This document shows, piece after piece, positions 7,360 to 34,620 of a DNA stretch of 64,000 nucleotides; within the stretch, counting starts at the first letter, position 1, and every line of letters begins with the position of its first letter. This stretch comes from Bacteroidota bacterium. GTDB taxonomy: Bacteria; Bacteroidota; Bacteroidia; Chitinophagales; Chitinophagaceae. The notes beneath the pieces were generated by a model, which saw only the letters and a program-made list of their open reading frames with translations, was not told the origin of the DNA and searched no databases. The translations under genes and the position numbers were made by a program. The stretch is from contig JAUZNZ010000026.1 in NCBI GenBank assembly GCA_030706735.1, positions 1 to 64,000 on the forward strand, given 5' to 3'.

Positions 7360-8577
7360 GTGAAGACCATAACGCTTTTCGCCTGCCTCTGTCTCCTGCC
7401 GATCCTGATCGGCATGACTGCCTGCACGCGAAAGCCGGAAAAGATCCTCGATCGACGGATCAGCCTTCGGCGGAAAGACAAGATCCCGTACGGCACCTAT
7501 GTCGCGTATGATAACCTTAAGGCGATCTTCCCGAATGCGGAAGTAACCATTAATCGCTCCTCACCCTCCGAATTCGCGGAAGGCGGGGTGGGTAAGAAGG
7601 CGTATATCATCATCGTGCAGCGTATGGATCCGGACCCGGACGACCTGACTGCCCTCCTGAATTTCGTCGGCCAGGGAAATACGGTGTTCATCTCCGCATT
7701 CGGATTCGGAGATTCTTTGCTGAATAACCTGAATGTCAAACCGGGTTACCGGTTCTTTTCCTTGAATGGAAGGGATACCCTGAGGTTGAGCGTGACCAAT
7801 CCCGTCACCCGGGATTCTCTTTCATTCTTTTATCCGGGAGATGCCAATGACAGCTATTTCCGTTCCATCGATTCGCAATACACGTCGATCCTCGGACGTG
7901 ATGCCTGGGGAAAGCCCGACTTTCTGAAATTCGGCTATAAGGGCGGGGGCGCGATCTACCTCCACTACGCGCCGATGGCCTTCACCAATTTCTTCCTGCT
8001 GTTCGGGCACAATAAAGCCTATTACGAAAACGCCCTTTCCTATATCCCGGTCACTACCAACGAAATAAAGTGGGACGAATATTTCAGGTATTACGAATAT
8101 TCGGGCTCCGGGGGCAGGCGAAAGGGGTTTTCCGCACTGGGTTACATCCTTTCAAATACCTCGCTCGCCTGGGCCTTTTGGCTGGTGCTCCTACTCTTTC
8201 TGATCATCTACCTGTTCGAGTCCAAGCGAAGGCAGCGGATCGTGCCCGTAATCCCGCCGCTGCGCAATAACTCCCTCGATTTTGTAAAGACGATCGGGAG
8301 GCTATATTACCAGCGAAGGGATAACCATAACTTGCTGTTGAAAATGTCCGCCATATTCCAGGACCATGTCCGTACCAGGTATCGTCTCCATGTTCCCCCG
8401 ACCGCGGACGGGGAGCCCGCCTTCATCGAACGCCTTGCCCACCGCACAGGTTTCGACCGGACGGCGCTCGGCGACCTCCTGGCCCAAATGAGACAACTCC
8501 GCGACGCCGGGTCCGTGTCGGACGAAGGCATTCTGGCGCTGAACCAATCCCTCGAAGAATTTTATAAACTAGCATAA
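7360..8577 (+). CDS. DUF4350 domain protein
   Basis: The 405-residue protein starts at a GTG 3 nt after the previous stop. The N-terminus is hydrophobic and ends in MTAC, a possible lipobox or signal-anchor. About 270 extracytoplasmic residues follow, with the DUF4350 pattern (PYGTYVAYDNLKAIFPNAEV and GNTVFISAFGFG), then one membrane helix (WAFWLVLLLFLIIYLF) and a basic cytoplasmic tail. DUF4350 proteins are regularly encoded between DUF4129 and MoxR genes, as here. No catalytic residues can be assigned. Confidence 0.83.
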   Translation: MKTITLFACLCLLPILIGMTACTRKPEKILDRRISLRRKDKIPYGTYVAYDNLKAIFPNAEVTINRSSPSEFAEGGVGKKAYIIIVQRMDPDPDDLTALLNFVGQGNTVFISAFGFGDSLLNNLNVKPGYRFFSLNGRDTLRLSVTNPVTRDSLSFFYPGDANDSYFRSIDSQYTSILGRDAWGKPDFLKFGYKGGGAIYLHYAPMAFTNFFLLFGHNKAYYENALSYIPVTTNEIKWDEYFRYYEYSGSGGRRKGFSALGYILSNTSLAWAFWLVLLLFLIIYLFESKRRQRIVPVIPPLRNNSLDFVKTIGRLYYQRRDNHNLLLKMSAIFQDHVRTRYRLHVPPTADGEPAFIERLAHRTGFDRTALGDLLAQMRQLRDAGSVSDEGILALNQSLEEFYKLA

Positions 8578-8584
8578 TCATACT

Positions 8585-9562
8585 ATGGAAGAAAATCTAT
8601 TCGAACAGCGAACCGACCTCAGCGAACTGCAGCAAGCGATCGACCGGCTAAAGACCGAGATCGGTAAAGTGATCGTCGGTCAGGAACAAATGGTCGAGCT
8701 ATTGCTTGCCGGTATCCTGGCCGATGGCCATATCCTGATCGAAGGGGTGCCGGGTGTGGCGAAAACGCTGACGGCCAAGTTGCTGAGCAAGGCCGTCTCC
8801 GTGGGATTTTCCCGCATCCAGTTCACGCCGGACCTGATGCCCAGCGATGTGATCGGCACGTCGATATTCAACCCCAGGGAGAGCGCTTTTCAATTCAAGC
8901 CCGGCCCCATCTTCAGTAATATCGTCCTGATCGATGAGATCAACCGCGCGCCCGCTAAGACGCAGTCCGCCCTGTTCGAAGTAATGGAAGAACGGCAGAT
9001 CACCGTCGATGGACAAAGCTTCGTGCTCGAACACCCGTTCATGGTCGTGGCTACACAGAACCCCATCGAACAGGAGGGCACGTATCACCTGCCGGAAGCC
9101 CAGTTGGACAGATTTTTATTTAAGATCAACGTGGGATACCCGACGCCGGAACAGGAGTTCCGGATCGTATCGAATCATCATGCGCTGCGTACGGAAAATG
9201 TGATGAGCCTCGTACAACCCGTGATCGATGCGGCCCAGATCCACACGCTGCGCGCCCAGGTGCAGGCCCTGCACGTGGAAGACAAACTCATCCGGTTCAT
9301 CACCTCGATCGTCGCGGCTACCCGCGATCATAAGGCCATCTACCTCGGGGCTTCGCCCAGGGCTTCGCTCGGCATTCTCCAGGGTTCGAAGGCGATCGCC
9401 GCCATGCGCGGCCGCGATTTCGTCCTGCCTGACGATATCGTCTATGTGGCGCCGGCTGTACTGCGCCACCGCCTGGTGCTGACGCCTGAAAAGGAAATGG
9501 AAGGAGGCATGGCGGACGACGTGATCAACGAAATTATCGGATCGATAGAAATACCCCGTTAG
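8585..9562 (+). CDS. MoxR-family AAA+ ATPase
   Basis: The 325-residue protein is a MoxR-type AAA+ ATPase. Walker A is GVPGVAKT (54-61), Walker B is VLIDEINRAPAKTQSALFEVME, and sensor 1 lies in VVATQNPIEQEGTY. The C-terminal lid carries GASPRASLG. MoxR ATPases act as chaperones or remodelling factors for proteins of the adjacent DUF58/VWA genes. Here the DUF58 gene begins 2 nt downstream, so the pair is surely co-translated. The start at 8585 follows the previous stop by 7 nt. Confidence 0.95.
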   Translation: MEENLFEQRTDLSELQQAIDRLKTEIGKVIVGQEQMVELLLAGILADGHILIEGVPGVAKTLTAKLLSKAVSVGFSRIQFTPDLMPSDVIGTSIFNPRESAFQFKPGPIFSNIVLIDEINRAPAKTQSALFEVMEERQITVDGQSFVLEHPFMVVATQNPIEQEGTYHLPEAQLDRFLFKINVGYPTPEQEFRIVSNHHALRTENVMSLVQPVIDAAQIHTLRAQVQALHVEDKLIRFITSIVAATRDHKAIYLGASPRASLGILQGSKAIAAMRGRDFVLPDDIVYVAPAVLRHRLVLTPEKEMEGGMADDVINEIIGSIEIPR

Positions 9563-17663: not shown

Positions 17664-18320
17664 ATGAAATTCTTCATCGACACGGCGGACCTGGAACAAA
17701 TCAAGGAAGCAAACGACCTGGGCATTCTCAATGGCGTAACCACCAATCCCTCCCTCATGGCCAAAGTGGGCATCAAGGGTGAGGCTGCCGTCATGAACCA
17801 CTACAAGACCATCTGCGAACTGGTTAAGGACGGGGATATCAGCGCCGAAGTGGTTTCGACCGATTTCAAGGAGATCGTGGAAGAAGGTAAGAAACTGGCC
17901 GCCATCCACCCGCAGATCATTGTCAAAGTGCCGATGATCAAGGACGGCGTCAAGGCGATGCATTGGTTCACGGCCAACGGGATCAAAACGAACTGTACAC
18001 TGGTATTCTCTGCCGGTCAGGCCATACTTGCCGCCAAGGCAGGCGCAAAATATGTATCCCCATTCATCGGCCGGATCGACGACAGCAACTGGGACGGCGT
18101 CGAATTGATCGCGCAGATCGCCAATATATATGCGATCCAGGGCTACGAGACCGAGATCCTTGCCGCTTCGATCCGCAGCTCGCTGCATATCGTAAAATGT
18201 GCGGAGGCCGGCGCCGATGTGGTCACCAGTCCGCTGGAACCCATCCTGGGCCTGCTCAAGCATCCCCTGACCGATATCGGTCTCGCGAAGTTCCTGGCCG
18301 ACGCAAAATCATTTAAATAG
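17664..18320 (+). CDS. fsa: Fructose-6-phosphate aldolase / TalC-type transaldolase
   Basis: The 218-residue protein is a short transaldolase-family TIM barrel (MKFFIDTADLEQI, GVTTNPSLMAK). The Schiff-base lysine is Lys88 in IIVKVPM. Later strands read NCTLVFSAGQAILAAKAGAKYVSPF and AASIRSS. The length fits the FSA/TalC subfamily, which cleaves fructose 6-phosphate or performs the transaldolase reaction of the pentose phosphate pathway. Sequence alone does not separate these two activities reliably. Its 3' end overlaps the convergent cobA gene by 8 nt. Confidence 0.9.
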   Translation: MKFFIDTADLEQIKEANDLGILNGVTTNPSLMAKVGIKGEAAVMNHYKTICELVKDGDISAEVVSTDFKEIVEEGKKLAAIHPQIIVKVPMIKDGVKAMHWFTANGIKTNCTLVFSAGQAILAAKAGAKYVSPFIGRIDDSNWDGVELIAQIANIYAIQGYETEILAASIRSSLHIVKCAEAGADVVTSPLEPILGLLKHPLTDIGLAKFLADAKSFK

Positions 18321-19110
18321 CACCTTCCACCGCCCGTCGCTCTGCCTCCGCTCCGCGACGGACGTGACGTTTCGTTTCTGCGGCTGGCATGCCCGCCACG
18401 TCCCCGATAAGGATGATCGCCGGATGCGTGAGGCCATGGATCCTTGCCGACTCCGGTAGGGCGGCCACCGTCCCCGTGATCATTTTCTGTTTTGGCAGGC
18501 TGGCATGCTGAATGATCGCGGCCGGCATATTCCCATAGCCTTCCCGGATGTACACCTCCGCGATCTCTTTCACTTTTTTCATCCCCATATAGATGACGAC
18601 AGTGGCCCTGCTTCGCATGGCCAATCGCAGGTCCCCGGAAAGGGATCCGTCCTTTCGCGTACCCGAAATGACCCAAATGCTCTCGCTGACCAGCCGGTGG
18701 GTCAGTGGAATGCCGGATAACCCCGAAGCCTGCATGCTCGTAATGCCCGGCACATAGGAGACCTCGATCCCATGCTCCTTCGCGTATAACCATTCCTCAA
18801 ACCCCCTTCCGAAAATAAAGGGATCGCCGCCCTTTAACCGGATCACCCGACCCCGTTCATCGACCTTTTCGCGGATCAGTGCATGAATGGTCTCCTGCGG
18901 CGTATACGCGCCATATGGCAATTTGCCGACATAGATCCGTTCAGCATCGGCAGGCGCCAGATCGAGCAGGTCCTTGTTGGCCAGGTTGTCATACAGGATA
19001 ACGGGAGCAGTTTGCAAAATGCGATGCGCTTTCAGCGTAATTAATTCGGGATCTCCGGGTCCGGCGCCGATCAGGATCAATTCACGAGTTACGGAGGGAG
19101 TGGTCGCCAT
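18313..19110 (-). CDS. cobA: Uroporphyrinogen-III C-methyltransferase
   Basis: The 265-residue enzyme makes precorrin-2 from uroporphyrinogen III with two SAM molecules, the first step toward siroheme. Motifs are GAGPGDPELITLKA (17-30), the VIRLKGGDPFIFGRG segment, YVPGITSM, GIPLTHR and the VIYMG region. It is divergent from nirB, whose product needs siroheme, so its role here is to supply the nitrite reductase cofactor. No precorrin-2 dehydrogenase/ferrochelatase gene is present in the window, so the last steps are encoded elsewhere. Confidence 0.93.
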   Translation of the reverse strand: MATTPSVTRELILIGAGPGDPELITLKAHRILQTAPVILYDNLANKDLLDLAPADAERIYVGKLPYGAYTPQETIHALIREKVDERGRVIRLKGGDPFIFGRGFEEWLYAKEHGIEVSYVPGITSMQASGLSGIPLTHRLVSESIWVISGTRKDGSLSGDLRLAMRSRATVVIYMGMKKVKEIAEVYIREGYGNMPAAIIQHASLPKQKMITGTVAALPESARIHGLTHPAIILIGDVAGMPAAETKRHVRRGAEAERRAVEGAI

Positions 19111-19323: not shown

Positions 19324-21837
19324 ATGAGCAGTACATCCAAACCCATCGTGGTCGTGGCAGGAAATGGCATGGTGGGGCATAAATTCTGCGAGAAACTCAT
19401 CGCCAGATCCGAACGCGAGTCCATGGAGTTTCAGATCGTGATCTTCGGTGAAGAGCCAAGACCGGCCTATGATCGCGTCCACCTAAGCGAATATTTTAAT
19501 GGAAAGTCGGTCGGCGACCTCAGCCTCTCCATGGCAGGCTGGTTCGGCGACCAGGATGTCATCCTTCACCTCGGTGATCCCATCCGGGAGATCAACCGCA
19601 CCGCAAAGACCGTTCATTCTTCCAAAGGCCTCGTCCAGCCCTACGATTACCTGGTACTTGCTACCGGGTCCTCCGCCTTTGTACCTGACATGGCCGGTAT
19701 TGAAAAGAAAGGGGTATTTGTATATCGTACGATTGACGACCTGGACCTGATCAAAGCCTATGCCCCACAGGCTTCCAACGCAGCCGTTATGGGCGGCGGC
19801 CTCCTCGGACTGGAAGCGGCAAAAGCGCTCCTGGATCTGGGTATCGCAGACACGCACATCATCGAATTCGCCTCGCGCCTGATGCCCCGCCAGATCGATC
19901 AGGCCGGCAGCCAGCTGCTCGAGGCCAGGCTCACTCAGCTGGGTTTACAGATACATCTCAACAAGAGCACCCTCGCCATCGAGGGCGGCAGCCGGATCGA
20001 ATCCCTGCAATTCGCAGACGATACCCGGTTACCCGTTGACATGCTGGTCATCTCGGCGGGTATCCGCCCCCGTGATGAACTGGCCAGGCTGGCCGGCCTG
20101 CAGGTCGGCGCAAGAGGCGGGATCCTGGTGAACGAACGGATGGAGACCAGCGACAAGCACATTTTTGCCATCGGGGAATGCGCCCTCGTTAACGGAATGG
20201 TCTACGGCCTGGTAGCTCCCGGATACGAAATGGCCGATACGGTGGCCGCCAACCTGACCGACGGCAGAAAGACCTTCACGGGCTTTGATATGAGCACCAA
20301 GCTGAAACTCATCGGCGTGGACGTCGCCAGTTTCGGGGACCCCTTCATCGCAGAGCCGCACTGCCGGACCATCGCTTTCGAGGATCGTAACAAAGGCATC
20401 TATAAACGGATCAATATCACGCCGGATGGCAAGTATCTCCTGGGCGGCATCCTGATCGGCGATGCCTCCACCTATAATCTCCTGCTTCAGAATGTAACGA
20501 ATAAAATGCTCCTCCCGCCGGACCCGGAAGAGCTCATCATGGGTGTTCGCAGCGGAGAGGCCGGGGGGGACGGGATCATGAGCCTGCCTGATGAAGCGCT
20601 GGTCTGCTCTTGCGAGTCCGTACCAAAAGAAGTCATCTGCAAGGCCGTGACGGATAAGTTCATCCATACGGTGGACGACATGAAGAAATGCACCCGGGCG
20701 GGAACCGGCTGCGGTGGGTGCATCCCCCTGGTGAAGGATCTCATTGCAGGCACCCTGAAAGCGAACGGCCAATACCTGAGGAACGTCATCTGCGAACATT
20801 TCGACCACTCCCGGCAGGAATTGCTCGACCTGATCAAAATAAACGGGATCAGGTCCTTCGACGAAGCCCTGGATCACTACGGCAAAGGGGACGGCTGCGA
20901 AGTCTGCAAACCCGCCCTGGCGAGTATTCTGGCCAGCCTCTGGAATGAGCCGATCCAGAAGCAGGTGACCATTCAGGATAGTAACGACCGCTTCCTGGCC
21001 AACATCCAAAAGGGAGGCAGCTATTCCGTCGTGCCGCGCATTCCCGGCGGCGAGATCACGCCCGATAAGCTCATCGTGCTTGGCAAGGTCGCCAAAAAGT
21101 ATAATCTCTATACGAAGATCACCGGCGGCCAGCGCATAGATCTTTTCGGCGCCCACGTGGGGGACCTGCCCGATATCTGGGAAGAACTGATTGCCGCGGG
21201 TTTCGAGAGCGGGCACGCATACGGCAAGGCCTTAAGAACCGTAAAGAGCTGCGTGGGCAGCACATGGTGCCGCTTCGGGCTGCACGATAGCGTCTCCTTC
21301 GCCATTCGGGTCGAGCAACGGTACAAGGGGATCCGCGCGCCCCATAAGATCAAAGGCGGCGTCAGCGGATGTGTCCGGGAATGCGCCGAAGCCCAGGCAA
21401 AGGATTTCGGGATCATCGCCACCGAAAAGGGATGGAACCTGTATGTCTGCGGCAACGGGGGCTCCAAGCCCCAGCACGCGCAACTGCTCATCACCGACAT
21501 CGACGAAGCGACCTGCATCCGCTACCTCGACCGCTTCCTGATGTTCTATATCAAGACCGCCGATCCGCTGACGCGCACCGCGGTCTGGCTAAATAAAATG
21601 GAAGGCGGGTTGAGCTATCTGAAAAACGTGGTGGTGAACGATAGCCTGGGCATGGCGGCGCAATGGGAAGAGGAAATGCAGGGTCTCGTGGACAGTTATG
21701 CCTGCGAATGGAAAGAGGTCGTGGAAACCCCGGAACTGCGTAAGCGCTTTACCCATTTTGTCAACGCCCCCCGGCGTAAGGACCCCACGCTGGTCTTCGA
21801 TAAGATGCGTGACCAGATCAAAGCAAAGGAATGGTAA
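19324..21837 (+). CDS. nirB: Assimilatory nitrite reductase [NAD(P)H], large subunit
   Basis: The 837-residue cytoplasmic enzyme reduces nitrite to ammonium. An N-terminal FAD/NAD-binding reductase (VVVAGNGMVGHKF; second Rossmann AVMGGGLLGLEAAKAL) is followed by two BFD-like [2Fe-2S] regions (LVCSCESVPKE..TGCGGC and GDGCEVCKP). The siroheme/[4Fe-4S] half comes last: its cluster cysteines are in KSCVGSTWCRFG (C-X5-C) and SGCVRECAEAQ (C-X3-C). Length and order fit NirB. It is followed 26 nt later by the small subunit. Confidence 0.96.
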   Translation: MSSTSKPIVVVAGNGMVGHKFCEKLIARSERESMEFQIVIFGEEPRPAYDRVHLSEYFNGKSVGDLSLSMAGWFGDQDVILHLGDPIREINRTAKTVHSSKGLVQPYDYLVLATGSSAFVPDMAGIEKKGVFVYRTIDDLDLIKAYAPQASNAAVMGGGLLGLEAAKALLDLGIADTHIIEFASRLMPRQIDQAGSQLLEARLTQLGLQIHLNKSTLAIEGGSRIESLQFADDTRLPVDMLVISAGIRPRDELARLAGLQVGARGGILVNERMETSDKHIFAIGECALVNGMVYGLVAPGYEMADTVAANLTDGRKTFTGFDMSTKLKLIGVDVASFGDPFIAEPHCRTIAFEDRNKGIYKRINITPDGKYLLGGILIGDASTYNLLLQNVTNKMLLPPDPEELIMGVRSGEAGGDGIMSLPDEALVCSCESVPKEVICKAVTDKFIHTVDDMKKCTRAGTGCGGCIPLVKDLIAGTLKANGQYLRNVICEHFDHSRQELLDLIKINGIRSFDEALDHYGKGDGCEVCKPALASILASLWNEPIQKQVTIQDSNDRFLANIQKGGSYSVVPRIPGGEITPDKLIVLGKVAKKYNLYTKITGGQRIDLFGAHVGDLPDIWEELIAAGFESGHAYGKALRTVKSCVGSTWCRFGLHDSVSFAIRVEQRYKGIRAPHKIKGGVSGCVRECAEAQAKDFGIIATEKGWNLYVCGNGGSKPQHAQLLITDIDEATCIRYLDRFLMFYIKTADPLTRTAVWLNKMEGGLSYLKNVVVNDSLGMAAQWEEEMQGLVDSYACEWKEVVETPELRKRFTHFVNAPRRKDPTLVFDKMRDQIKAKEW

Positions 21838-21863: not shown

Positions 21864-22259
21864 ATGGATAATCAAACCGGCCGGCCCACTGCCGCAAGGG
21901 CGGGCGAAAAATGGAAATGGAGGATGGCCTGCCGCGTGGACGATGTCCCGAAGGACGGCGGCGCCTGTGTCAGCCTCGATGACGAACAGATCGCCATTTT
22001 TCACTTCTCGCGCCGCGGCGAATGGTTCGCCACACAGAACGAATGCCCGCACAAGCAACAAATGGCCCTGTCCCGCGGCCTGATCGGCAGCGCCGGCCCG
22101 GACAACGAGCCCAAGCTCGCTTGCCCCTTTCATAAGAGGACGTTCTCCCTCCTCTCCGGCGAATGCCTTAACGACGAACCTCTCCGCATTGCAGTCTATC
22201 CGGTAAGGATCAGGGACGGAAAGGTCTTTGTCGGGATGCGCGCGCGAGCGGAAAAATAA
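21864..22259 (+). CDS. nirD: Nitrite reductase [NAD(P)H], small subunit (Rieske type)
   Basis: The 131-residue protein has a Rieske [2Fe-2S] fold. The ligands are visible in NECPHKQ (Cys and His) and LACPFHKRTF (Cys and His). NirD associates with NirB and is needed for full activity. The extra basic N-terminus (ARAGEKWKWRMACRVDDVP) is normal for the family. It lies 26 nt after nirB and 78 nt before moaCB. Confidence 0.94.
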   Translation: MDNQTGRPTAARAGEKWKWRMACRVDDVPKDGGACVSLDDEQIAIFHFSRRGEWFATQNECPHKQQMALSRGLIGSAGPDNEPKLACPFHKRTFSLLSGECLNDEPLRIAVYPVRIRDGKVFVGMRARAEK

Positions 22260-22337
22260 AGTTCGTCGCCTCTGCCCGCATTGCCGCAAAATCAGTCAAA
22301 TTTGATAAAATTATTGCGCCGCAAGCGGCGCCGCCAC

Positions 22338-23288
22338 ATGCGCGACATTACCCATAAACAGATCAGTCTGAGGACGGCCAGTGCCGTAGGCATCGTCTTC
22401 TGCTCGCCGGATACCCTCACGCTGATCCGCGACGGACGCCTGCCCAAAGGCAATCTTTTCGACGTGGCCAGGGCTGCGGGTTTCCTGGGCGCCAAGGCTA
22501 CCCCGCAGCTGCTGCCTCATTGCCACCCCGTCTCCATAGACGCCATGGACATGCAGTTTGAGTTCCTTCAGCAGGAGTTGCATGAAAAATGGTTCGAGCC
22601 GCCCATCCTCGCCCGTACCGGGATCGTCATCCGGGGGGAAGCCAGTTCCATCGGGAGGACCGGCATCGAAATGGAAGTACTGACAGCCGTCTCGGTGGCC
22701 GCCCTTGAGATCTATGATATGCTCAAACCCGTCGATACCCGCCTGGAAATAGGCGGTATCCGCCTTCTTGAAAAAAAAGGGGGGAAGAGCGATCGGGAAA
22801 AATATTTCACTAATCCCCCCGCTTGCGCGATCCTGGTATGCTCCGATTCGACGGCAGCCGGCAAAAGGGAAGATAAGAGCGGCCGGCAGATCCGGGACAT
22901 GCTGGAAAGCGCCGGGGCCGGGATAAAACATTATGCTGTCCTGCCGGACGACCCGGACCTGATCCGGAAGACCATACTGGACTGGGTAAACGAAGACGTC
23001 GCATTCATATTTACAACAGGAGGGACGGGGCTGGGCCCACGCGATCATACGGTAGAGGCGGTGCGAGGCATACTGGAGAGGGATGCGGACGGCATCACCG
23101 AGGCCATGCGCGCCTACGGCCAGATGCGCACGCCCCTGGCCATGATGAGCCGCGGCGTCGCCGGCTCAATCGCTCAAACCCTGATCGTCACGCTGCCCGG
23201 CAGCAGCGACGGCGCCCGGGAATCCCTGGAAGCCCTCTTGCCCGCGCTGTTCCATGCGCGTAAAATGTTGAAGGGAGGAGGACACTGA
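22338..23288 (+). CDS. moaCB: Molybdenum cofactor biosynthesis fusion protein MoaC-MoaB
   Basis: The ATG at 22338 (MRDITHKQISLRTA) is preferred to a TTG at 22281 that only adds a basic extension. The 316-residue protein joins MoaC (about 1-150) to a MoaB/MogA domain (about 160-316). MoaC shows LLPHCHPV and GIEMEVLTAVSVAALEIYDM and makes cyclic pyranopterin monophosphate. The MoaB part shows FTTGGTGLGPRDHTVEA and acts in molybdopterin adenylation. The fused form is known in some bacteria. The moeA start follows 2 nt after its stop. Confidence 0.93.
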   Translation: MRDITHKQISLRTASAVGIVFCSPDTLTLIRDGRLPKGNLFDVARAAGFLGAKATPQLLPHCHPVSIDAMDMQFEFLQQELHEKWFEPPILARTGIVIRGEASSIGRTGIEMEVLTAVSVAALEIYDMLKPVDTRLEIGGIRLLEKKGGKSDREKYFTNPPACAILVCSDSTAAGKREDKSGRQIRDMLESAGAGIKHYAVLPDDPDLIRKTILDWVNEDVAFIFTTGGTGLGPRDHTVEAVRGILERDADGITEAMRAYGQMRTPLAMMSRGVAGSIAQTLIVTLPGSSDGARESLEALLPALFHARKMLKGGGH

Positions 23289-25512: not shown

Positions 25513-27027
25513 ATGAGAAAAAAAATGGTTTTTCGCCTGGCAGCGGCGTTAGTTTTTATTTCGGCTTCATTCCACCTTAACGCTCAACTCGCTTTCTCAG
25601 GCCAGCTCCGCACCCGTACCGAACTCCGCGACGGATACGGCACACTGGAAAGCGTCGGCAGCCAACCGGCCTTTCTCACCTCGCAGCGAACCCGCCTGAC
25701 CTTCAACTTCCATTCCGGCCACGTTACTCTCCAGGCCTCCGTCCAGGACCTGCGTGTCTGGGGAGCAGACGCCTCCACGATCAGTAACGCCGACGGATCG
25801 CGCCTGGGCGTGCATGAGGCCTGGGCGGAACTTGTCCTTTCCGACGCCAGGGATAGCTCATTCAAACGACCCGCTTTCGAATACCTGAGCTTGAAGATCG
25901 GCCGGCAGGAACTCGTCTACGACGACCAGCGGCTCCTGGGCAACCTCGATTGGCTGCAACAGGCCCGGCGCCATGACGCGGTCGTCCTCAAATGGCGGAA
26001 CAAAGGCTGGCAGGCCGATCTGGGCGCGGCCTATTCCCAAAATACCGACGCATTCAATTATAACGGTACCTATTACACGCCCGCCAACCTGCCTCCCTAC
26101 ATAAAAGACAGCAAGGGTAATCTCGTGCCAACTCCATCCGGCCTCGTCCCGCTGGCCAACGCATCGGGGATCAGCGCCAGGTCCGGATCGCCACTGCTCG
26201 CTAACGCTCCATCGACCAATGGCATGAACCAGAATTACAAATCGATGCAGTTCCTCTATGTCGCCAGAAAGGTTCACCGGATGAACCTGTCGGCCCTCCT
26301 GTTCGCCGACGAATTCGGAAAATATACCCTCGATTCGGTTCGCAGCGTCGTCGGCGCAGATACCGGATATATATACGGAAGGCGCTTTGCGTCGAGCGGA
26401 GTGAACGCAAGGGTCACCGCCGGCCTGCTCCTTGCCGGTCCCCTGAACAAACAAAATGACCTCCGGTTCACCGCCGGAGCCTGGTACCAGGGGGGCAAGA
26501 ACAAGGACGGCCTCGACCTCTCGGCCTTCATGTCCACCATATCACTCAGCTATGTGATGGGAAATTTCACCTGTACCACGGGCTGGGATTACCTGTCCGG
26601 TAATGACGGCTTTTCTTCTTCCCCTTCGGATCATCGCTTCGATCCCCTATATGGTACGCCGCATAAGTTCTGGGGCATCATGGATTACTTCTATGCCGGC
26701 ACCGGGTCGTCAGCGGGCGGATTGAGCAACCCCTTCGTGAAAATAAAGGTCGCCGCGCCCGACGGACGCATGTCCCTGGGCCTCGATTACCATTATTTTG
26801 CCATGGCCGCCGCCCAGAAAGACCAGAAAGGACTCCCCCTGAATAAATACCTGGGCAGCGAACTGGACCTGGTCGGAAATTACGCGCTGAACAAAAATGC
26901 CACCCTGGAGCTCGGTCTCTGCGGACTCGCCGCGTCGGGCTCCATGGAATATGCCAAAGGCATCGCCCCCGGTACGGCCAGGCTGGCTGCGCATTGGGCC
27001 TATCTCCAGGTAAACGTCAAAATATGA
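25513..27027 (+). CDS. Outer-membrane porin, alginate-export-like family
   Basis: The 504-residue protein has a signal peptide (VFRLAAALVFISASFHLNAQ) and then a beta-barrel sequence with many short amphipathic strands. The N-terminal part (FSGQLRTRTELRDGYG, LTFNFHSGHVTLQASVQDLRVWG, KIGRQELVYDDQRLLGNLDWLQQ) is the pattern of the alginate-export porin family. The name does not imply alginate here. As first gene of the nitrate operon, overlapping narK by 4 nt (ATGA), it is most likely the outer-membrane channel for nitrate or nitrite. That role is inferred from context. Confidence 0.8.
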   Translation: MRKKMVFRLAAALVFISASFHLNAQLAFSGQLRTRTELRDGYGTLESVGSQPAFLTSQRTRLTFNFHSGHVTLQASVQDLRVWGADASTISNADGSRLGVHEAWAELVLSDARDSSFKRPAFEYLSLKIGRQELVYDDQRLLGNLDWLQQARRHDAVVLKWRNKGWQADLGAAYSQNTDAFNYNGTYYTPANLPPYIKDSKGNLVPTPSGLVPLANASGISARSGSPLLANAPSTNGMNQNYKSMQFLYVARKVHRMNLSALLFADEFGKYTLDSVRSVVGADTGYIYGRRFASSGVNARVTAGLLLAGPLNKQNDLRFTAGAWYQGGKNKDGLDLSAFMSTISLSYVMGNFTCTTGWDYLSGNDGFSSSPSDHRFDPLYGTPHKFWGIMDYFYAGTGSSAGGLSNPFVKIKVAAPDGRMSLGLDYHYFAMAAAQKDQKGLPLNKYLGSELDLVGNYALNKNATLELGLCGLAASGSMEYAKGIAPGTARLAAHWAYLQVNVKI

Positions 27028-28457
27028 ACTCATTCCATAAATGCATGTCTATGTCTTCCCCATCTATTCAATCGGTCATTGCTTCGGATGCTGCCGGATC
27101 GTCGCCTGACAGGCCGCTGGACAGGATCCGCCTCTTCTCACTTCGGACGGTGCAGATGCGCACCTTCCATATCACCTGGCTCATGTTCTTTGTTTGCTTC
27201 TTCGGCTGGTTCGGTCTGGCTCCGCTGATGCCGACCATTCGCGCCGACCTTCATCTCGGCAAAACACAGGTGGGCAACCTGATCATCGCCTCCGTATCGT
27301 CCACGATCATCGCCAGGCTGGTCATCGGCCGGCTTTGCGATAAATGGGGGCCGAGAAAGACGGCCATCCGCCTCCTGCTGGCGGGTTCCATACCGGTTTT
27401 CCTGGTCGGACTTTCGACGGATTATTATAGCTTCTTATGGTTCCGCCTGGCGATCGGCGTCATCGGCGCATCCTTTGTCATCACACAGTTCCATACTTCG
27501 CTCATGTTCGGTCCGTCCATAAAGGGTACGGCCAATGCCATTACGGGTGGCTGGGGAAACCTGGGAGGCGGCGTGACGAATATGGTAATGCCCCTGATCT
27601 TCGCGACCATCGTTGGCTTCGGATATGCCCCGCATTATGCCTGGCGCTACGCCATGCTGGTGCCCGGCATGATGATGCTCGGGGTCGCCTTCCTGTATCG
27701 TCGCTATACGCAGGATACGCCATCGGGCAATTTTGGCGCCACGGCTTCCACCCATGCGTCCGCGACGGCTTCCGCAACGCCTTCCGCAACGGCCTCCGCC
27801 GCCGGCCCCGCGCCGGCAAAAGGCAGAAAGACGGATTGGTCGATCCTGGCGGATCGCCGGATCGCCGCCCTGGTCCTGGCCTATGCCGTGTGCTTCGGCA
27901 TGGAGATCACCTTCGATAACGTGGCCCCTCTGCATTTCGTCGATTCATTTAAGCTCTCTCAAAGCGCCGCGGGATTCTGGGCCGGCATTTTTGGAGGCAT
28001 GAACCTCTTCGCCCGCGCTCTCGGCGGCATCGTGTCCGATAAGGTCGGCCGTCGTTGGGGGATCAGGGGAAAAGGGACCCTCCTCGCCCTCGTACTGCTT
28101 CTGGAAGGATGCGGACTGATCGCTTTCGCAGCCGCAGGGAGCCTGACGGGCGCGATCGTCATGATGCTGAGCTTCGCCCTGTTCCTGAAAATGGCGAACG
28201 GCGCAACCTATGGCATCGTGCCCTTCATTAATGAAAAAAATGTCGGCCTGGTTAGCGGCGTGGTGGGAGCGGGAGGCAACCTCGGGGGAATGCTGGTCGG
28301 GTTCCTCTTCCGGTGGGGCTCGGTCAGCTATGTCCAGGCATTCACCTGGATAGGCATGTCCGTTATCATCGTCTCGCTGATCGTGGGCGTTACCCGCTTT
28401 CGCCGAAGACCCGCCATGACCGGACAAATGACCATGTCCGAAGCCGCCGTAGCCTGA
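27024..28457 (+). CDS. narK: Nitrate/nitrite transporter, NarK-type MFS
   Basis: The ATG at 27024 overlaps the porin stop and gives 477 residues. Twelve membrane segments are expected. The nitrate signature GGWGNLGGGVTNMVMPLIF follows helix 5, and a second glycine-rich motif GVVGAGGNLGGMLVGF lies in helix 11. Arginines sit in the TM2 and TM8 positions (ARLVIGRL, FARALGG). The central cytoplasmic loop carries an Ala/Ser/Thr repeat (about residues 240-265). It imports nitrate for the reductase encoded 41 nt downstream. Confidence 0.92.
   Translation: MNSFHKCMSMSSPSIQSVIASDAAGSSPDRPLDRIRLFSLRTVQMRTFHITWLMFFVCFFGWFGLAPLMPTIRADLHLGKTQVGNLIIASVSSTIIARLVIGRLCDKWGPRKTAIRLLLAGSIPVFLVGLSTDYYSFLWFRLAIGVIGASFVITQFHTSLMFGPSIKGTANAITGGWGNLGGGVTNMVMPLIFATIVGFGYAPHYAWRYAMLVPGMMMLGVAFLYRRYTQDTPSGNFGATASTHASATASATPSATASAAGPAPAKGRKTDWSILADRRIAALVLAYAVCFGMEITFDNVAPLHFVDSFKLSQSAAGFWAGIFGGMNLFARALGGIVSDKVGRRWGIRGKGTLLALVLLLEGCGLIAFAAAGSLTGAIVMMLSFALFLKMANGATYGIVPFINEKNVGLVSGVVGAGGNLGGMLVGFLFRWGSVSYVQAFTWIGMSVIIVSLIVGVTRFRRRPAMTGQMTMSEAAVA
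27742..27810 (+). repeat. Imperfect 12-bp tandem repeat inside narK
   Basis: Units related to GCTTCCGCAACG repeat several times and encode an Ala/Ser/Thr low-complexity stretch (SATASATPSATASA) in the central cytoplasmic loop of the transporter. The repeat keeps the reading frame because each unit is four codons. Copy number could vary between strains. Confidence 0.65.
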
Positions 28458-28498: not shown

Positions 28499-31400
28499 AT
28501 GCCCGCATCATACCCACACACGAGTTCCTTTACGACTACCTGCTGCTATTGCGGGGTGGGCTGCGGCATCGTGGTGCGAAAGGACAAAAAAGGCAGTATT
28601 ACTGTAGAAGGCGATCCCTCACATCCCGTAAATAAGGGCATGTTGTGCAGTAAAGGAATGAACCTGCATTATACCGTCAACGATCAAAGCGATCGCCTGC
28701 TCTATCCGCAGATGCGTTATAATAAGAGCCTTCCCCTTCAGCGCGTGACCTGGGACGCTGCCCTGGAGCGCGCCGCCGCCGTATTCAGGACCTTCATCGA
28801 AAGACACGGCCCCGATTCGGTGGCATTCTATATATCCGGTCAATGCCTGACCGAAGAGTATTACGTGATCAATAAGCTGGTCAAAGGCTTCATGGGCACC
28901 AACAATATCGACAGCAATTCGAGGCTCTGCATGAGCAGCGCCGTCGCCGCTTACAAGATGGCGCTGGGCGAAGATACCGTGCCGGTCAGTTATGAAGACA
29001 TCGAATTGGCGGATTGCTTCTTCGTGACTGGGGCCAACCCCGCCTGGTGCCACCCGATCCTTTGGAGAAGGGTGGAGGCGCATAAGGCGGCCAACCCGGG
29101 TGTCCGGATCATCGTTGCCGATCCCCGCGCTACGGCAAGTGGTCAATCGGCGGACCTGCACCTGCCGATCCGGCCGGGCACCGATATCGTCCTGCACCAT
29201 GCCATCGGGCGGATCCTGATCGAAGAGGGTAGGGTGGATGCATCCTTCGTGGGCCGCCATACGGAAGGGTTCGATGGATATGCCCGAACCGTCTCACGCC
29301 GGACCATAGCCGAAGCGGCCGCTTTGTGCGATGTGCCTGAACAGGACATCCGCCTGGCCGCCGGATATATCGGGAATGCGACAGCCTTCATCAGCATGTG
29401 GACGATGGGGTTGAACCAGAGCGCGGCCGCAGTGAGCAAGATCGTCAGCCTGATCAACCTGCATCTCATCACCGGCCAGATCGGCAAGCCGGGGTCCGGA
29501 CCGTTCTCCCTGACCGGCCAGCCTAATGCCATGGGTGGTCGGGAGGCCGGGGGCCTGGCCAATCTACTGCCTGCACACCGTGATCTCTCTGATCCGACAC
29601 ATCGCGAAGAGGTGCAACGGTTTTGGGGCAGCCCCCCTATTTCCGACCGGCCGGGACTTACCGCAACCGCCATGTTCGAAGCATTGGCGGACGAACGCCT
29701 CAAGGCGATCTGGATCGTCGGCACCAATCCCCTCGTAAGTCTCCCGGACTCCCGCCTCGCGGAACAAGCCCTTCGCAAAGCAAAGTTCGTGGTCGTTCAG
29801 GAGATCAGCCAAAAGCCCGAGACGCTGGCCTTTGCCGACCTGATCCTGCCCGCCGCCGCCTGGTCGGAGAAGGACGGTTCCATGACCAATTCCGAAAGAC
29901 GCATCACCTACCTGCATAAGATCGGGGACGCGCCGGGAGAGGCCTTGCCCGATGCGGAGATCATTTGCCGTTTCGCCCGCAGGATGGGCTATCCCGGCTT
30001 CGACTATTCCGGCAGCGACGAGATCTTCCGCGAACATGCCAGACTGACCGCCGGTACCTCGATCGATATCAGCGGCCTGGATCATGCCATCCTGAAGGAA
30101 CATCGTTCCGTACAATGGCCCTACCCCGGCCGCGGCCGGCTTTTCGCCGACGGCCATTTCCTGACTCCTTCCGGCCGCGCGATCATCCATTCCGTGACTG
30201 ACCAGATCGCCAGCGAACAACCCGATGCGGAATTCCCATTCATACTCACCACCGGTCGCATACGCGACCAATGGCACACGATGACGAAAACGGGCAAAGT
30301 GAACAAGCTTAAACAACAGTTTGCCCAATCCTTCCTGGAGATCCATCCCGAAGACGCACGAAGCATCGGAGTGGCAGATGAAGATCTCGTGACCGTTCAG
30401 TCCCGTCGCGGAGAGGTTCGGGTCAGGGCCAGGTGCTCTGCTGAGATCAAAAGAGGGGTCGTGTTCCTTCCCATGCATTGGGGACGGGTGGCAGGCAACG
30501 ACCTGAACAGGACCAACAACGTCACGAATAATCTCGTGGATCCCATTTCCAGAGAGCCTGACCTGAAGTTCTGTGCGGTGAAGGTCGCCGGATACCGCAA
30601 GACCAGGCAGCACATCGTCGTGGTCGGCGCCGGCGCAGGGGCCTTCGGCTTTGTCTCGGCCTGCCGCGAAAAGAATCGCGAAGATCCGATAACCGTTTTC
30701 AGCCGCGAGGATTTCCCGTTTTATGACCGCGTTCAGCTGCCCGACTATATTAACGGAAGACAGCGATGGGAGCAACTGGTGAAAATGACCGATGAGGCTG
30801 AGCCCGGCTTCGGGATCTGCTTGCGCCGCGGCGTGAGCGTCGTGCGCATCGACCGGGAAAATAAGTTTGTGGTGGATTCGAACGGGGACGTCACGCACTA
30901 CGACCTGCTGATCCTGGCCACGGGTAGTAGTGCGGCCCTGCCCAGGAATGTCCCGGAATTGAAAGGCATTTTTACGATGCGCAGCCGTACCGACGCCGAT
31001 CTTTTTAAGGAGTATGTTCCCGGCGGCGGGCACGTCGTCATCGTCGGCGGAGGATTGCTGGGCCTGGAGCTGGCCGCATCCCTGCGCGAAGCGGGGATCA
31101 GGATCACGATCGTGCAGCGGATATCCCGCTTCCTCAACCGCCAGCTCGACCCCCTGGGCAGCCAGATGCTGCATGACGAGATCGTCGATCAGGGTTGCGA
31201 GGTCTATTATTCCGATGAGGTGCAACTTTTTTACGGCCAGACCCGCCTGACCGGCATTCGCTTGCGCAGCGGCAGGATGATCGATTGTGATGCCCTGGTA
31301 TTTGCGATCGGCACCGTGCCCAATATCGGGATCGCACGTGCATCGGGGCTTCAATGCCAGCGCGGAGTGATCGTCAATCAATACCTGCAGACCAGCGATC

Positions 31401-32002
31401 CGGATATTTATGCCATCGGCGAGATCGCCGAATACAAAGGCATTTTATATGGGTTCACCGCTGCTGCCGAACAACAGGCCCGGGTGGTCGCCCGCTATCT
31501 CGACGGCGATATCGCCAGCTATTATGAAGGCAGCGTCATGATGAACATCATCAAGATCCACGGTTTCGACCTTTGCAGCATCGGCATCCCCGAATGCCCC
31601 AACGAGCAGGACTATGAAGAGATCGTATTCATCGACAAGGCCAGAAGGTATTATAAGAAATGTATTATCCACCGCGATCGGCTCGTAGGCGCCATTCTGA
31701 TCGGGGATAAAGAGGAGTTCCGGGAGTTCAGGGAACTGATCGCCGGCGGCATTGAATTGAATGAGAAACGACTGGGTCTGCTGCGTAGCGGTAAGAAGGC
31801 CGCGCCCATCTCCGGGGCGCTGGTATGCAGCTGCAATAATGTAGGCATCGGCAATCTGAAAGAACGGATCGCCGGGGGATGCCACGACCTGGCGGCTTTG
31901 TCTGCCGTCACCGGGGCCGGCACAGGCTGCGGTTCCTGCAGGCCGGAAATAAAAAAAATATTGGAAGACGAATTACGCAAAAGGGAGGCGCATGTTCCGT
32001 AA
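28499..32002 (+). CDS. nasA: Assimilatory nitrate reductase fused to its NAD(P)H/FAD reductase
   Basis: The start at ATG 28499 gives 1167 residues, and the upstream open frame only reads through narK. Residues 1-700 are a molybdopterin oxidoreductase. It has [4Fe-4S] ligands Cys15, Cys18, Cys22 and Cys50 (CCYCGVGCG, GMLCSKG), GQPNAMGGREAGGLANLLPAHRD near the middle, and a C-terminal dinucleotide-binding domain with TGRIRDQWHTMTKTG. Residues about 701-1090 resemble the reductase half of NirB (IVVVGAGAGAFGF, VVIVGGGLLGLELAASL). A final BFD-like [2Fe-2S] domain carries LVCSCNNVG and GTGCGSCRPE. One chain can therefore take electrons from NAD(P)H and reduce nitrate to nitrite. Confidence 0.94.
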   Translation: MPASYPHTSSFTTTCCYCGVGCGIVVRKDKKGSITVEGDPSHPVNKGMLCSKGMNLHYTVNDQSDRLLYPQMRYNKSLPLQRVTWDAALERAAAVFRTFIERHGPDSVAFYISGQCLTEEYYVINKLVKGFMGTNNIDSNSRLCMSSAVAAYKMALGEDTVPVSYEDIELADCFFVTGANPAWCHPILWRRVEAHKAANPGVRIIVADPRATASGQSADLHLPIRPGTDIVLHHAIGRILIEEGRVDASFVGRHTEGFDGYARTVSRRTIAEAAALCDVPEQDIRLAAGYIGNATAFISMWTMGLNQSAAAVSKIVSLINLHLITGQIGKPGSGPFSLTGQPNAMGGREAGGLANLLPAHRDLSDPTHREEVQRFWGSPPISDRPGLTATAMFEALADERLKAIWIVGTNPLVSLPDSRLAEQALRKAKFVVVQEISQKPETLAFADLILPAAAWSEKDGSMTNSERRITYLHKIGDAPGEALPDAEIICRFARRMGYPGFDYSGSDEIFREHARLTAGTSIDISGLDHAILKEHRSVQWPYPGRGRLFADGHFLTPSGRAIIHSVTDQIASEQPDAEFPFILTTGRIRDQWHTMTKTGKVNKLKQQFAQSFLEIHPEDARSIGVADEDLVTVQSRRGEVRVRARCSAEIKRGVVFLPMHWGRVAGNDLNRTNNVTNNLVDPISREPDLKFCAVKVAGYRKTRQHIVVVGAGAGAFGFVSACREKNREDPITVFSREDFPFYDRVQLPDYINGRQRWEQLVKMTDEAEPGFGICLRRGVSVVRIDRENKFVVDSNGDVTHYDLLILATGSSAALPRNVPELKGIFTMRSRTDADLFKEYVPGGGHVVIVGGGLLGLELAASLREAGIRITIVQRISRFLNRQLDPLGSQMLHDEIVDQGCEVYYSDEVQLFYGQTRLTGIRLRSGRMIDCDALVFAIGTVPNIGIARASGLQCQRGVIVNQYLQTSDPDIYAIGEIAEYKGILYGFTAAAEQQARVVARYLDGDIASYYEGSVMMNIIKIHGFDLCSIGIPECPNEQDYEEIVFIDKARRYYKKCIIHRDRLVGAILIGDKEEFREFRELIAGGIELNEKRLGLLRSGKKAAPISGALVCSCNNVGIGNLKERIAGGCHDLAALSAVTGAGTGCGSCRPEIKKILEDELRKREAHVP

Positions 32003-33440
32003 AAATTATTCGGTCAGGATCAATCTTCCGGGCGGCATCGTCGCAAACGGCGATCTGTACGCCATCGTGGAGGCCGCCGAAACCGCAAAGGTGGGAGAGG
32101 TCCGGTTCGGCACGCGACAGGAGTTGTTTTGCAAGGTTGCTGATAAGTATGGGCTGCGATTCCTGGACCAGCTCCGGCAAGCCGGGATATCTTACGAAGC
32201 GAATGAAGAATTGTACCCCAATATCGTAAGCTCCTATGTCACCGAGGACGTCTTCCAGCAGGCTAACTGGGTCAGCGAAGGCATGTACAAGGACATCCTC
32301 GACGGGTTTGATTACAGGCCGCGGTTGAAGATCAACCTCATCGAGGCCAGCCAGTCCTTTGTTCCTTTCTTCACGGGACATGTCAACTTTATCAGCTCGC
32401 CTACCGGCAATTACTGGTATCTCTTTTTTCGCTGGCCGGGAACGGCCGAACTCTTTCGTTGGAAGGGGTTGATCTATTCGCGGGATATCCCCCGCATCAG
32501 CCGTCTGATCGAAGAGGTGGTGGCCGCATCGGCCGGAAGTCCCCGGCTTGGCGGGGACGGACTCTTCGCGGAAGTGCAGTCTCGCGGGCAGTTTGTCATG
32601 CAAACCGTTACCGAGGAACTGATCCTCCCGACGTTCAGCCTTCCCTATTATGAAGGGTTCAACCGCTATGGCGCCAAACTTTGGTTGGGGATCTATCGGC
32701 GCGAGGAATGGTTCCCTCTAAGCTTCCTCAAAGATATCTGCCTGATCTGTCAACAGACCAAGATCGGCCAATTGTACGCCACTCCCTGGAAATCCCTCAT
32801 CATTAAGGGCATTGACCAGTCCGACCGCCGGCTTTGGGACTATGTGTTGGGAAAATACCGGATCAATGTACGGCATGCCTCCAATGAACTGAACTGGCAT
32901 GTCGAAGACCTAAGCGAGGAGGGGATTGGGTTGAAGCGTTACCTGGTGCGACAATTCGATAATGAGGATATCCGGACCTATGGTCTTTGCTTCGCTATTA
33001 AAACCCGCCCGGGTTCCGGGATGTTCGGCTCCGTGGTCATTCGCCGCAGGCAGCAAACTCAGCGAAACCCCCGCGCGGCATCCGAGAGATATGATATCCT
33101 CTACACCCGCGACTTCAATGCCAACTCCCGGGAGTATATCCTTTTCCGGGAAGGTTTGGAAAAAGCGACTCTCGGGACCTACCTCGCCTCCTTGTGCAAG
33201 TATTTCTATGAGCTGCAGAGCGAAAGCGACCTGATCTCTCACGCCCAATATCGTTCGGAAAAAGAAGAGGCGGACGATGGCCAGGGTGCAGACCAGGTGC
33301 TGCAGTGCCGGCATTGTCTCAGCCTCTATGACGGCGGCACCTGCGGCATATGCGGGGCGCCCGGTAAAGATTTTATCCTGGTCGACAAGGCGCGCTTGCA
33401 ACTCTTGCCAATTGCGGCTACCTTTGATGCCACGTCATGA
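31992..33440 (+). CDS. Nitrite/sulfite-reductase-like protein with shortened rubredoxin-like tail
   Basis: The 482-residue protein overlaps the nitrate reductase by 11 nt and must be co-translated. Two ferredoxin-like half-domains of the nitrite/sulfite reductase fold are recognisable: INLPGGIVANGDLYAIVEAAE..EVRFGTRQELF near the start and KIGQLYATPWKSLIIKGI near residue 255. The C-X5-C plus C-X3-C motif for the siroheme-bridged [4Fe-4S] cluster is absent, so it is unlikely to be a working siroheme enzyme. The tail (about 435-455) has CRHCLSLYD and CGICG separated by only eight residues. Normal rubredoxins have about 29 there. Context suggests an electron carrier or scaffold for nitrate reduction. 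Function is not established. Confidence 0.75.
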   Translation: MFRKNYSVRINLPGGIVANGDLYAIVEAAETAKVGEVRFGTRQELFCKVADKYGLRFLDQLRQAGISYEANEELYPNIVSSYVTEDVFQQANWVSEGMYKDILDGFDYRPRLKINLIEASQSFVPFFTGHVNFISSPTGNYWYLFFRWPGTAELFRWKGLIYSRDIPRISRLIEEVVAASAGSPRLGGDGLFAEVQSRGQFVMQTVTEELILPTFSLPYYEGFNRYGAKLWLGIYRREEWFPLSFLKDICLICQQTKIGQLYATPWKSLIIKGIDQSDRRLWDYVLGKYRINVRHASNELNWHVEDLSEEGIGLKRYLVRQFDNEDIRTYGLCFAIKTRPGSGMFGSVVIRRRQQTQRNPRAASERYDILYTRDFNANSREYILFREGLEKATLGTYLASLCKYFYELQSESDLISHAQYRSEKEEADDGQGADQVLQCRHCLSLYDGGTCGICGAPGKDFILVDKARLQLLPIAATFDATS

Positions 33441-33526: not shown

Positions 33527-33651
33527 GGTCTATGATCGTTGGGGACAGGCCCGCCATGGTCATGAAAGGGACGGTTTTGCTCGTCCGGTGATAGGGAAAA
33601 TTGGATGGGATTCATTCAGGCATCGTAACTTTATGGGGCGAAAAGGATAAC

Positions 33652-34620
33652 ATGACTGAGATCGGGGATGAATATGGACGCACTTTCAGGACACTCCGGG
33701 TAAGCCTGCTGAGCCGCTGCAATCTCGGATGCGTCTATTGCGTCGACGGAGACGGCTCCGCCGTTCCGCAGGTCCAGTCCGCTGCGGCCTCTCAGGATCA
33801 TTTGGATCTGCCTGCTCTGCTGCAGATCATGCAAAGATTGCAGGGGCTCCTGCAACTGACTACCGTCCGGCTGACTGGGGGCGAGCCGCTGATCTACCCG
33901 GACCTTATTGGTTTGATCGCGGGCATCCGGTCGATGGGGATCGGCGAGATCAAATTGACCACGAATGGAGTTCTCCTGAAAAGGCTGGCTGCTCCCATGC
34001 AGCAGGCGGGCATGCGCTCCATCAATGTATCCCTGGACGCCATCGATGAAGAATTGTTCTTCCGGATGAGCCGGCGTCGGTCGGTTAAACGTATTGTCGA
34101 GGGGATCGATGCGGCGCTGGAGGCGGGACTGGACGTCAAGATCAATGCGGTCATCATGAGGGGCATGAATGATTCGCAGATCATTCCGCTGATGGAATTC
34201 GCCGCTTCGCGCGGGATCGCGATCAGGTTCCTGGAACTAATGGCCATGGGACACCTGCATGAGCGCTATCATGAATACCTCTTCCCGCGCGATGAGATCC
34301 TGTCGGTGATCGCGGATCGATATCGGTTCAGTCCGCTCGGGAGAAAGAGCGGCGCTACGGCTCATTATTGGAAGACCGATGAGGGGTTGACCTTCGGGGT
34401 GATCGCCAACGAAACGGAACCGTTCTGCCGCGATTGCGACCGTCTCCGGCTCGATAGCCAGGGAAATATCTTTGGCTGCCTGAGCAGCAACCACCCGATC
34501 CGGCTCGATCCCGCCGACAGTGAGGAGGCATGGAGGAAGAATTTACGCCAGGCCCTGTTGCAGAAACAAGCTTTGCGCTTTGTAGGCAGCGACCTGAGCA
34601 TGCTGCATATCGGAGGCTGA
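33652..34620 (+). CDS. moaA: GTP 3',8-cyclase, molybdenum cofactor biosynthesis
   Basis: The start at ATG 33652 gives 322 residues (MTEIGDEYGRTFRTLRVSLL). An in-frame ATG at 33604 would add an unlikely extension. The N-terminal radical-SAM cluster motif is SRCNLGCVYC. The C-terminal second cluster ligands are in PFCRDCDRLRLDSQGNIFGC. Other MoaA signatures are VRLTGGEPLIYPDL and LTTNGVLL. It converts GTP to 3',8-cyclo-7,8-dihydro-GTP, the first Moco step. The usual C-terminal GG ends the protein imperfectly (IGG). Confidence 0.95.
   Translation: MTEIGDEYGRTFRTLRVSLLSRCNLGCVYCVDGDGSAVPQVQSAAASQDHLDLPALLQIMQRLQGLLQLTTVRLTGGEPLIYPDLIGLIAGIRSMGIGEIKLTTNGVLLKRLAAPMQQAGMRSINVSLDAIDEELFFRMSRRRSVKRIVEGIDAALEAGLDVKINAVIMRGMNDSQIIPLMEFAASRGIAIRFLELMAMGHLHERYHEYLFPRDEILSVIADRYRFSPLGRKSGATAHYWKTDEGLTFGVIANETEPFCRDCDRLRLDSQGNIFGCLSSNHPIRLDPADSEEAWRKNLRQALLQKQALRFVGSDLSMLHIGG

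Follow-up and report, generated by a model that had tools for sequence, protein, structure and literature searches.

Why does a nitrate-assimilation operon that already has a true siroheme nitrite reductase also encode a second protein of the nitrite/sulfite reductase (NiR/SiR) fold, from which the ligands of the [4Fe-4S] cluster have been lost? The question is raised by a gene on contig JAUZNZ010000026.1 of a Chitinophagaceae bacterium (assembly GCA_030706735.1), of which positions 1 to 64,000 of the forward strand were analysed (the window). The gene, referred to here as the target, adjoins an assimilatory nitrate reductase (NasA) that is fused to a flavin adenine dinucleotide (FAD) module and a BFD [2Fe-2S] domain, and its protein consists of a cluster-free core and a tail with four cysteines (Table 1). 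Both the fold and the type of tail are known, but their combination and state are new: as read from its sequence, the target lacks features that define siroheme reductases and, within this lineage, features that define rubredoxins. Our tentative reading, to which we give a little less than an even chance, is that the target is a docking or partner subunit of a nitrate reductase driven by reduced nicotinamide adenine dinucleotide (NADH), with a tail that relays electrons or, now that it is compressed, possibly binds zinc.

The cluster-free core

The predicted structure of the core shows the complete two-repeat NiR/SiR fold, and two stretches of the target match PF03460 (NIR_SIR_ferr, 1e-10), the sole Pfam family found at E<=10. 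A preliminary description of this locus had recognised both ferredoxin-like halves of the fold and had expected a structure prediction to return it, and both points are borne out. The 4Fe-4S domain PF01077 has no match in the target in the same Pfam search (E<=10), and neither C-X5-C nor C-X3-C is found in its sequence, again as described. The pair of motifs at a suitable distance within the first 420 residues is found in none of the 91 family loci, a set that includes the window copy (L081), a partial copy (L091) and some genomes counted twice. The target is like CysI, NirA and the C-terminal half of NirB in its two-repeat fold, its PF03460 halves and 7 of 57 conserved SiR columns, but differs from them in having neither PF01077 nor the two cysteine motifs. 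In the sequences, loss of the cluster ligands is a property of the whole family and compression of the tail is lineage-specific. The family-wide loss and the predicted fold support the earlier suggestion of a repurposed NiR/SiR scaffold.

The target has nine cysteines, at positions 47, 250, 253, 333, 402, 439, 442, 451 and 454. In a profile alignment one of the four cluster cysteines of SiR faces a deletion in the target and the others fall on L300, R339 and R351 (for the last, 343 seems closer by eye), and the aligned positions, residues 295-308 and 336-345, contain no cysteine, which rules out overlooked siroheme cysteines. The template for siroheme proteins was built from 35 sequences, 33 sulfite-reductase-type proteins and two NirB fragments, and was aligned by HH comparison with an E of 3.3e-5 and a probability of 72, the residue mapping being approximate by a few positions; HHalign against 12 close CysI sequences gave a poor alignment, with a probability of about 5 at best. 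The 57 SiR-conserved columns were defined on the 33 sulfite-reductase-type proteins. Seven target residues, G15, R42, Q43, N77, K113, T264 and L286, match them and are also conserved in the family, while the other 50 columns are not kept, 7 of these holding a different conserved residue. Since the seven kept residues are conserved in the family, the siroheme pocket may be altered rather than erased, and Arg42, Gln43 and Lys113 leave a tetrapyrrole-handling role possible. The phrase "without siroheme ligands" used previously is better narrowed to the cluster and siroheme cysteines. A literature search on the pocket residues of SiR gave no result.

Core cysteines 250, 253, 333 and 402 are partly conserved, being present in 73, 81, 59 and 76 of 84 sequences (L081, L091, L069, which has a shifted tail, and identical duplicates removed). 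The first three are present in all 14 of the tail-less sequences considered below. These cysteines are candidates for a second cluster of an unusual kind.

The compressed tail

The tail of the target has the pattern C439-X2-C442-X8-C451-X2-C454, so that the two CxxC knuckles were correctly described as eight residues apart. The knuckles stand where the relatives have a rubredoxin tail: a rubredoxin match is found in 64 of the 65 A1 members, that is in 64 of 64 relatives, and the window protein is the exception. Its knuckles are separated by 8 residues as against 28-29 in most relatives, and PF00301 leaves its tail unmatched at E<=10. Among 144 distinct sequences (for which L097, L202 and L113, with a stop inside the match, were also removed) the spacing is 29 in 98, 28 in 27, and 34, 21, 15, 9 and 8 in one each, and 14 are tail-less. 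The rubredoxin length of 28-29 is therefore held in 125 of the 130 tailed sequences and a spacing of 8 by the window protein alone, while all four tail cysteines are kept in 130 of 130.

Three other tails are compressed, to a spacing of 9 (L196, genome G508), 15 (L115, G269) and 21 (L180, G645). The five nearest tree neighbours of each compressed tail all have a spacing of 29, those of L115 lying only at distances above 2, which indicates that the compressions arose separately. Whether the deletion is lineage-wide had been put forward as a point to check, and it is not, as the relatives carry a full rubredoxin. The compressed target tail is in frame and has lost none of its four cysteines, and the domain end and the conserved core residues are retained as well. 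In one relative, L069 from Hymenobacter coccineus, the tail of the copy that runs from 8001 onward reads out of frame, through sequence error or decay.

Which metal would such a tail hold? Pfam families at E<=10, the zinc-finger families included, give no match on the target tail. There is a weak similarity to RecR (E 0.84), over a stretch which we take to be the RecR zinc finger. A model of the tail alone has a predicted local distance difference test score of 71.9 and was made from a ten-row alignment that is rich in rubredoxins and hence biased. Its nearest structural neighbours are mostly rubredoxins and rubrerythrins, including 6nw1, nigerythrin and 1spw, a loop-truncated mutant of the D. 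gigas protein; none is significant (best E 0.12), and the list, which is headed by no zinc-ribbon entry, excludes nothing. The target shares a compact four-cysteine site with such loop-shortened rubredoxins and rubrerythrin-type domains, but differs from them in the lack of a significant match, in its fusion to a NiR fold and in a spacing shorter than that of rubrerythrin, where the knuckles are 12 residues apart. METPsc1, a designed rubredoxin miniature of 28 residues, has been made with Zn and with Fe and is redox-active in the Fe form, according to passages of PMC10130062, which suggests that a short four-cysteine site is not necessarily a zinc site. The zinc proposed earlier for the tail is possible, next to model neighbours of the rubredoxin and rubrerythrin types. 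The natural tails of 8, 9, 15 and 21 residues may be regarded as a natural experiment on the minimal size of a rubredoxin and on the metal it holds.

Linkage to the fused nitrate reductase

The distribution of the family was determined in a class-level sample of 396 genomes, each at least 90% complete. A full-length family match is found in 24 of these and the NasA-FAD-BFD fusion in 23; tailed copies and the fusion occur in precisely the same 23 genomes. In all 23 the two genes lie on one contig, on the same strand and within about 1 kb of each other; in one of these genomes, G427, the family match is interrupted by a stop. The 24th genome carries a tail-less copy (L106). Another 17 genomes match over the tail or its surroundings alone, and these matches are other rubredoxins. 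In G082, G438, G322 and G051, four genomes where NasA is matched but the fusion is absent, the family is not matched. Outside the class the family occurs in 4 of 296 phylum-level genomes (G893, G908, G956 and G960), all of one taxonomic family. An open reading frame (ORF) with PF01077 and of NirB size (834-863 aa) is present in all 25 tailed-copy genomes examined, namely the 23 and G581 and G541.

The same association is seen at the level of loci, among which some genomes occur twice; the genome search for relatives covered the best 80 of 181 matches. In 85 of 90 loci, the window's own excluded, a BFD domain lies upstream on the same strand, within 500 nt in 79 and at 680-1109 nt in 6; the five without it are L037 and L038, and L056, L065 and L091 near contig ends. 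The target is assigned to the family by homology over the core and by its position downstream of the fusion. The protein from a genome of the same genus (G009, locus L088) agrees with that of Puia dinghuensis (L011) in length, identity and tail, and the window is accordingly taken to come from a Puia-like member of the Chitinophagaceae. The target is present in one copy in its genome, which encodes a sulfite reductase of the CysI type as well, on a different contig. Two copies, both tailed by match range, are found in each of G459, G618 and G550.

The strongest NCBIfam matches of the relatives are rubredoxin-type models, and automatic naming therefore probably hides a conserved NiR-fold subunit. 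A published account of a NiR-fold/rubredoxin family was not found in open-access titles or abstracts.

A possible role as partner subunit

The docking-plus-relay reading is the simplest one and is supported by the one-to-one linkage to the fusion and by the four tail cysteines. In NirB, a NiR-fold half receives electrons from an FAD/[2Fe-2S] half of the same chain. The core of the target would be a former siroheme nitrite or sulfite reductase that, once its cluster ligands were lost, docks on the NirB-like FAD/[2Fe-2S] module fused to NasA and so mimics the contact between the NiR half of NirB and NirB's own module. The C-terminal rubredoxin of most relatives would pass electrons from NADH, FAD and [2Fe-2S] to the [4Fe-4S]/molybdenum (Mo) centre of NasA. 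In the Puia-like lineage of the window the rubredoxin would have been reduced to the two knuckles, still forming a single four-cysteine metal site. This would be either a zinc knuckle or Fe(Cys)4, the site of other rubredoxins with shortened loops. With a minimal Fe site the tail might still relay electrons; with zinc it might by now be structural. The electron carrier from an NADH-driven reductase that had been proposed from the sequence is consistent with the linkage and with the rubredoxin match in every relative.

A comparable arrangement is known elsewhere. Passages of PMC4724949 describe NasB/NasG, in which NasG is a ferredoxin, and Flp systems that feed NasC, so that there too an NAD(P)H flavoprotein and a carrier supply an assimilatory nitrate reductase. 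In the NasC systems described there the flavoprotein is encoded separately or is the nitrite reductase itself, whereas here it is fused to NasA and adjoined by a NiR-fold protein. The electron supply to the assimilatory nitrate reductase of Bacteroidota seems not to have been worked out.

Several observations weigh against a docked relay. The fusion already holds FAD, [2Fe-2S], [4Fe-4S] and Mo and may need no further carrier. The overlap of the gene with its upstream partner is not general among the relatives. Two copies with full tails, L037 (Pinibacter aurantiacus) and L038 (Chitinophagaceae bacterium 26-R-25), both at 8001-9482, have none of 15 window proteins or domains searched for near them. 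A match of PF18267 on the FAD domain of the partner was considered as proof of a rubredoxin partner and was dropped, as the FAD module of NirB matches it too. The tail-less proteins are a further point. Of 294 Chitinophagaceae genomes sampled, 66 match the family, and 14 of the matches end before the tail; these (L197-L200, L202-L205 and L207-L212) form one clade with a support of 1.0. They have 46 conserved core columns in common with the tailed proteins, columns 82, 110, 329 and 375 being looser or changed. NasA, NirB and NirD are not found in the available flanks of the 14 loci (at L202, L204 and L210 only short or truncated ones). The fusion is missing from 12 of the 14 genomes, and the other two, G541 and G581, have a nitrate operon with a tailed copy as well. 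Since this clade is conserved outside nitrate operons and mostly without the fusion, the family core appears, on its sequence conservation, to have a role that needs neither the fusion nor the tail. The tail-less paralogues may offer a route to what the siroheme-reductase fold does without its cluster.

Alternative explanations

It is possible, though we regard it as doubtful, that the family as a whole, though cluster-free, retains a functional ligand pocket, possibly one that takes a tetrapyrrole, and is used in two settings: rubredoxin-tailed with a fused nitrate reductase, and tail-less, twice beside a sulfite reductase and siroheme synthesis. On this view four or more separate events would have shortened the rubredoxin to a smaller four-cysteine site, giving a series from Fe-rubredoxin to a zinc-knuckle architecture. 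Another proposal, which we consider unlikely, makes the protein a tetrapyrrole-handling accessory: siroheme or one of its precursors would still occupy the old pocket of the core, to be delivered to, or inserted into, a siroheme enzyme, NirB where there is a nitrate operon and sulfite reductase in other settings. R42, Q43, N77 and K113 are among the kept columns, and two of the 14 tail-less loci, L199 and L203, adjoin a sulfite-reductase-type protein (cluster motif checked in L203) and genes read from sequence as heme/siroheme synthesis; the other tail-less loci have varied neighbours. A PF01077 enzyme is present in 12 of the 14 tail-less genomes, as in every tailed-copy genome examined. It is missing, however, from G661 (81% complete) and from G468, which is 98% complete and has a tail-less copy, and a siroheme enzyme is no predictor of the family: PF01077 is found in 18 of 60 genomes, and of the 16 of these also in the class-level sample only G000 and G068 have a full-length family match. 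The loss of 50 of the 57 columns, 7 of them to another conserved residue, and the tracking of the fusion by the tailed form also speak against it. Precorrin-3B synthase, CobG, belongs to the same superfamily and keeps a cluster; 16 of the 65 family members match it weakly (best 9.4e-5), a point for the accessory, and the target itself is unmatched by TIGR02435 at E<=1. These CobG matches, and the many conserved charged core residues common to tailed and tail-less forms, could also be taken to mean that the protein is still an enzyme, its altered pocket acting on a tetrapyrrole or a different ligand in some other reaction. With the cluster gone there is no obvious electron route to the pocket, a candidate substrate is lacking, and this idea is scarcely credible.

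The remaining explanations concern the tail. A purely structural or regulatory part, in which the window protein holds zinc in its tail and stabilises a complex or channels nitrite between NasA and NirBD but transfers no electrons, is rather improbable. The C-X2-C-X8-C-X2-C spacing occurs in zinc knuckles, the RecR similarity points the same way, and the separate compressions and the tail-less clade imply that a full rubredoxin is at times dispensable; yet nearly all tailed sequences hold the rubredoxin spacing, the neighbours of the tail model (non-significant, from the rubredoxin-rich alignment) are mostly rubredoxins and rubrerythrins, and the tail matches no Pfam family at E<=10. Could the compression be an assembly error or early decay in this one genome? 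The spacing of 8 is unique and no second strain was found with it. The intact frame, cysteines, domain end and core residues argue otherwise, as do the separate compressions elsewhere, among them that to 9 in G508, a genome of 4 contigs, and such an error or decay is very unlikely.

The surrounding operon

The features are collected in Table 1. The overlap of the target with the nitrate reductase, the presence of a true nirB and the setting in a nitrate operon were all correctly given in the preliminary description. Upstream of the partner lie the tetrapyrrole methylase, nirB, the Rieske-type nirD, molybdenum cofactor genes, a Crp-like regulator, an Alginate_exp protein and a transporter of the major facilitator superfamily (MFS), and downstream of the target moaA and moaE; by gene content these surroundings are a nitrate-assimilation operon.

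Table 1. Positions in the window of the target, its partner and neighbouring genes
Feature	Position	Strand	Remarks
Target gene, cluster-less NiR/SiR-fold protein with four-cysteine tail, 482 aa	31992..33440	+	ATG start
Overlap of partner end and target start, 11 nt	31992..32002	+	partner ORF ends 32002
Core (residues 1-420) with both ferredoxin-like halves of the NiR/SiR fold and without cluster cysteines	31992..33251	+	
Compressed tail, probably rubredoxin-derived	33303..33380	+	cysteine codons from 33306, 33315, 33342, 33351
Partner, assimilatory nitrate reductase (Mo/[4Fe-4S]) fused to FAD/NADH and BFD [2Fe-2S]	28499..32002	+	start inferred; ORF open from 28313
Partner FAD/NAD(H) module	30611..31744	+	PF07992, PF18267
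Partner BFD [2Fe-2S] domain	31820..31966	+	PF04324, cysteines present
nirB, true siroheme nitrite reductase large subunit	19324..21837	+	C643-X5-C, C683-X3-C, PF01077, PF03460
nirD-like Rieske protein	21864..22259	+	
Tetrapyrrole methylase	18313..19110	-	PF00590; siroheme synthesis inferred from context
MFS transporter, NarK-like	26994..28457	+	PF07690; name inferred from context
moaA, molybdenum cofactor synthesis	33601..34620	+	

The Alginate_exp-type outer-membrane protein (25513-27027), flanked by the Crp-like regulator and the MFS transporter, is a candidate nitrate porin, and its relatives are found in many related nitrate loci. Among the cofactor genes, MoaC is fused to a MoCF_biosynth domain at 22281-23288.
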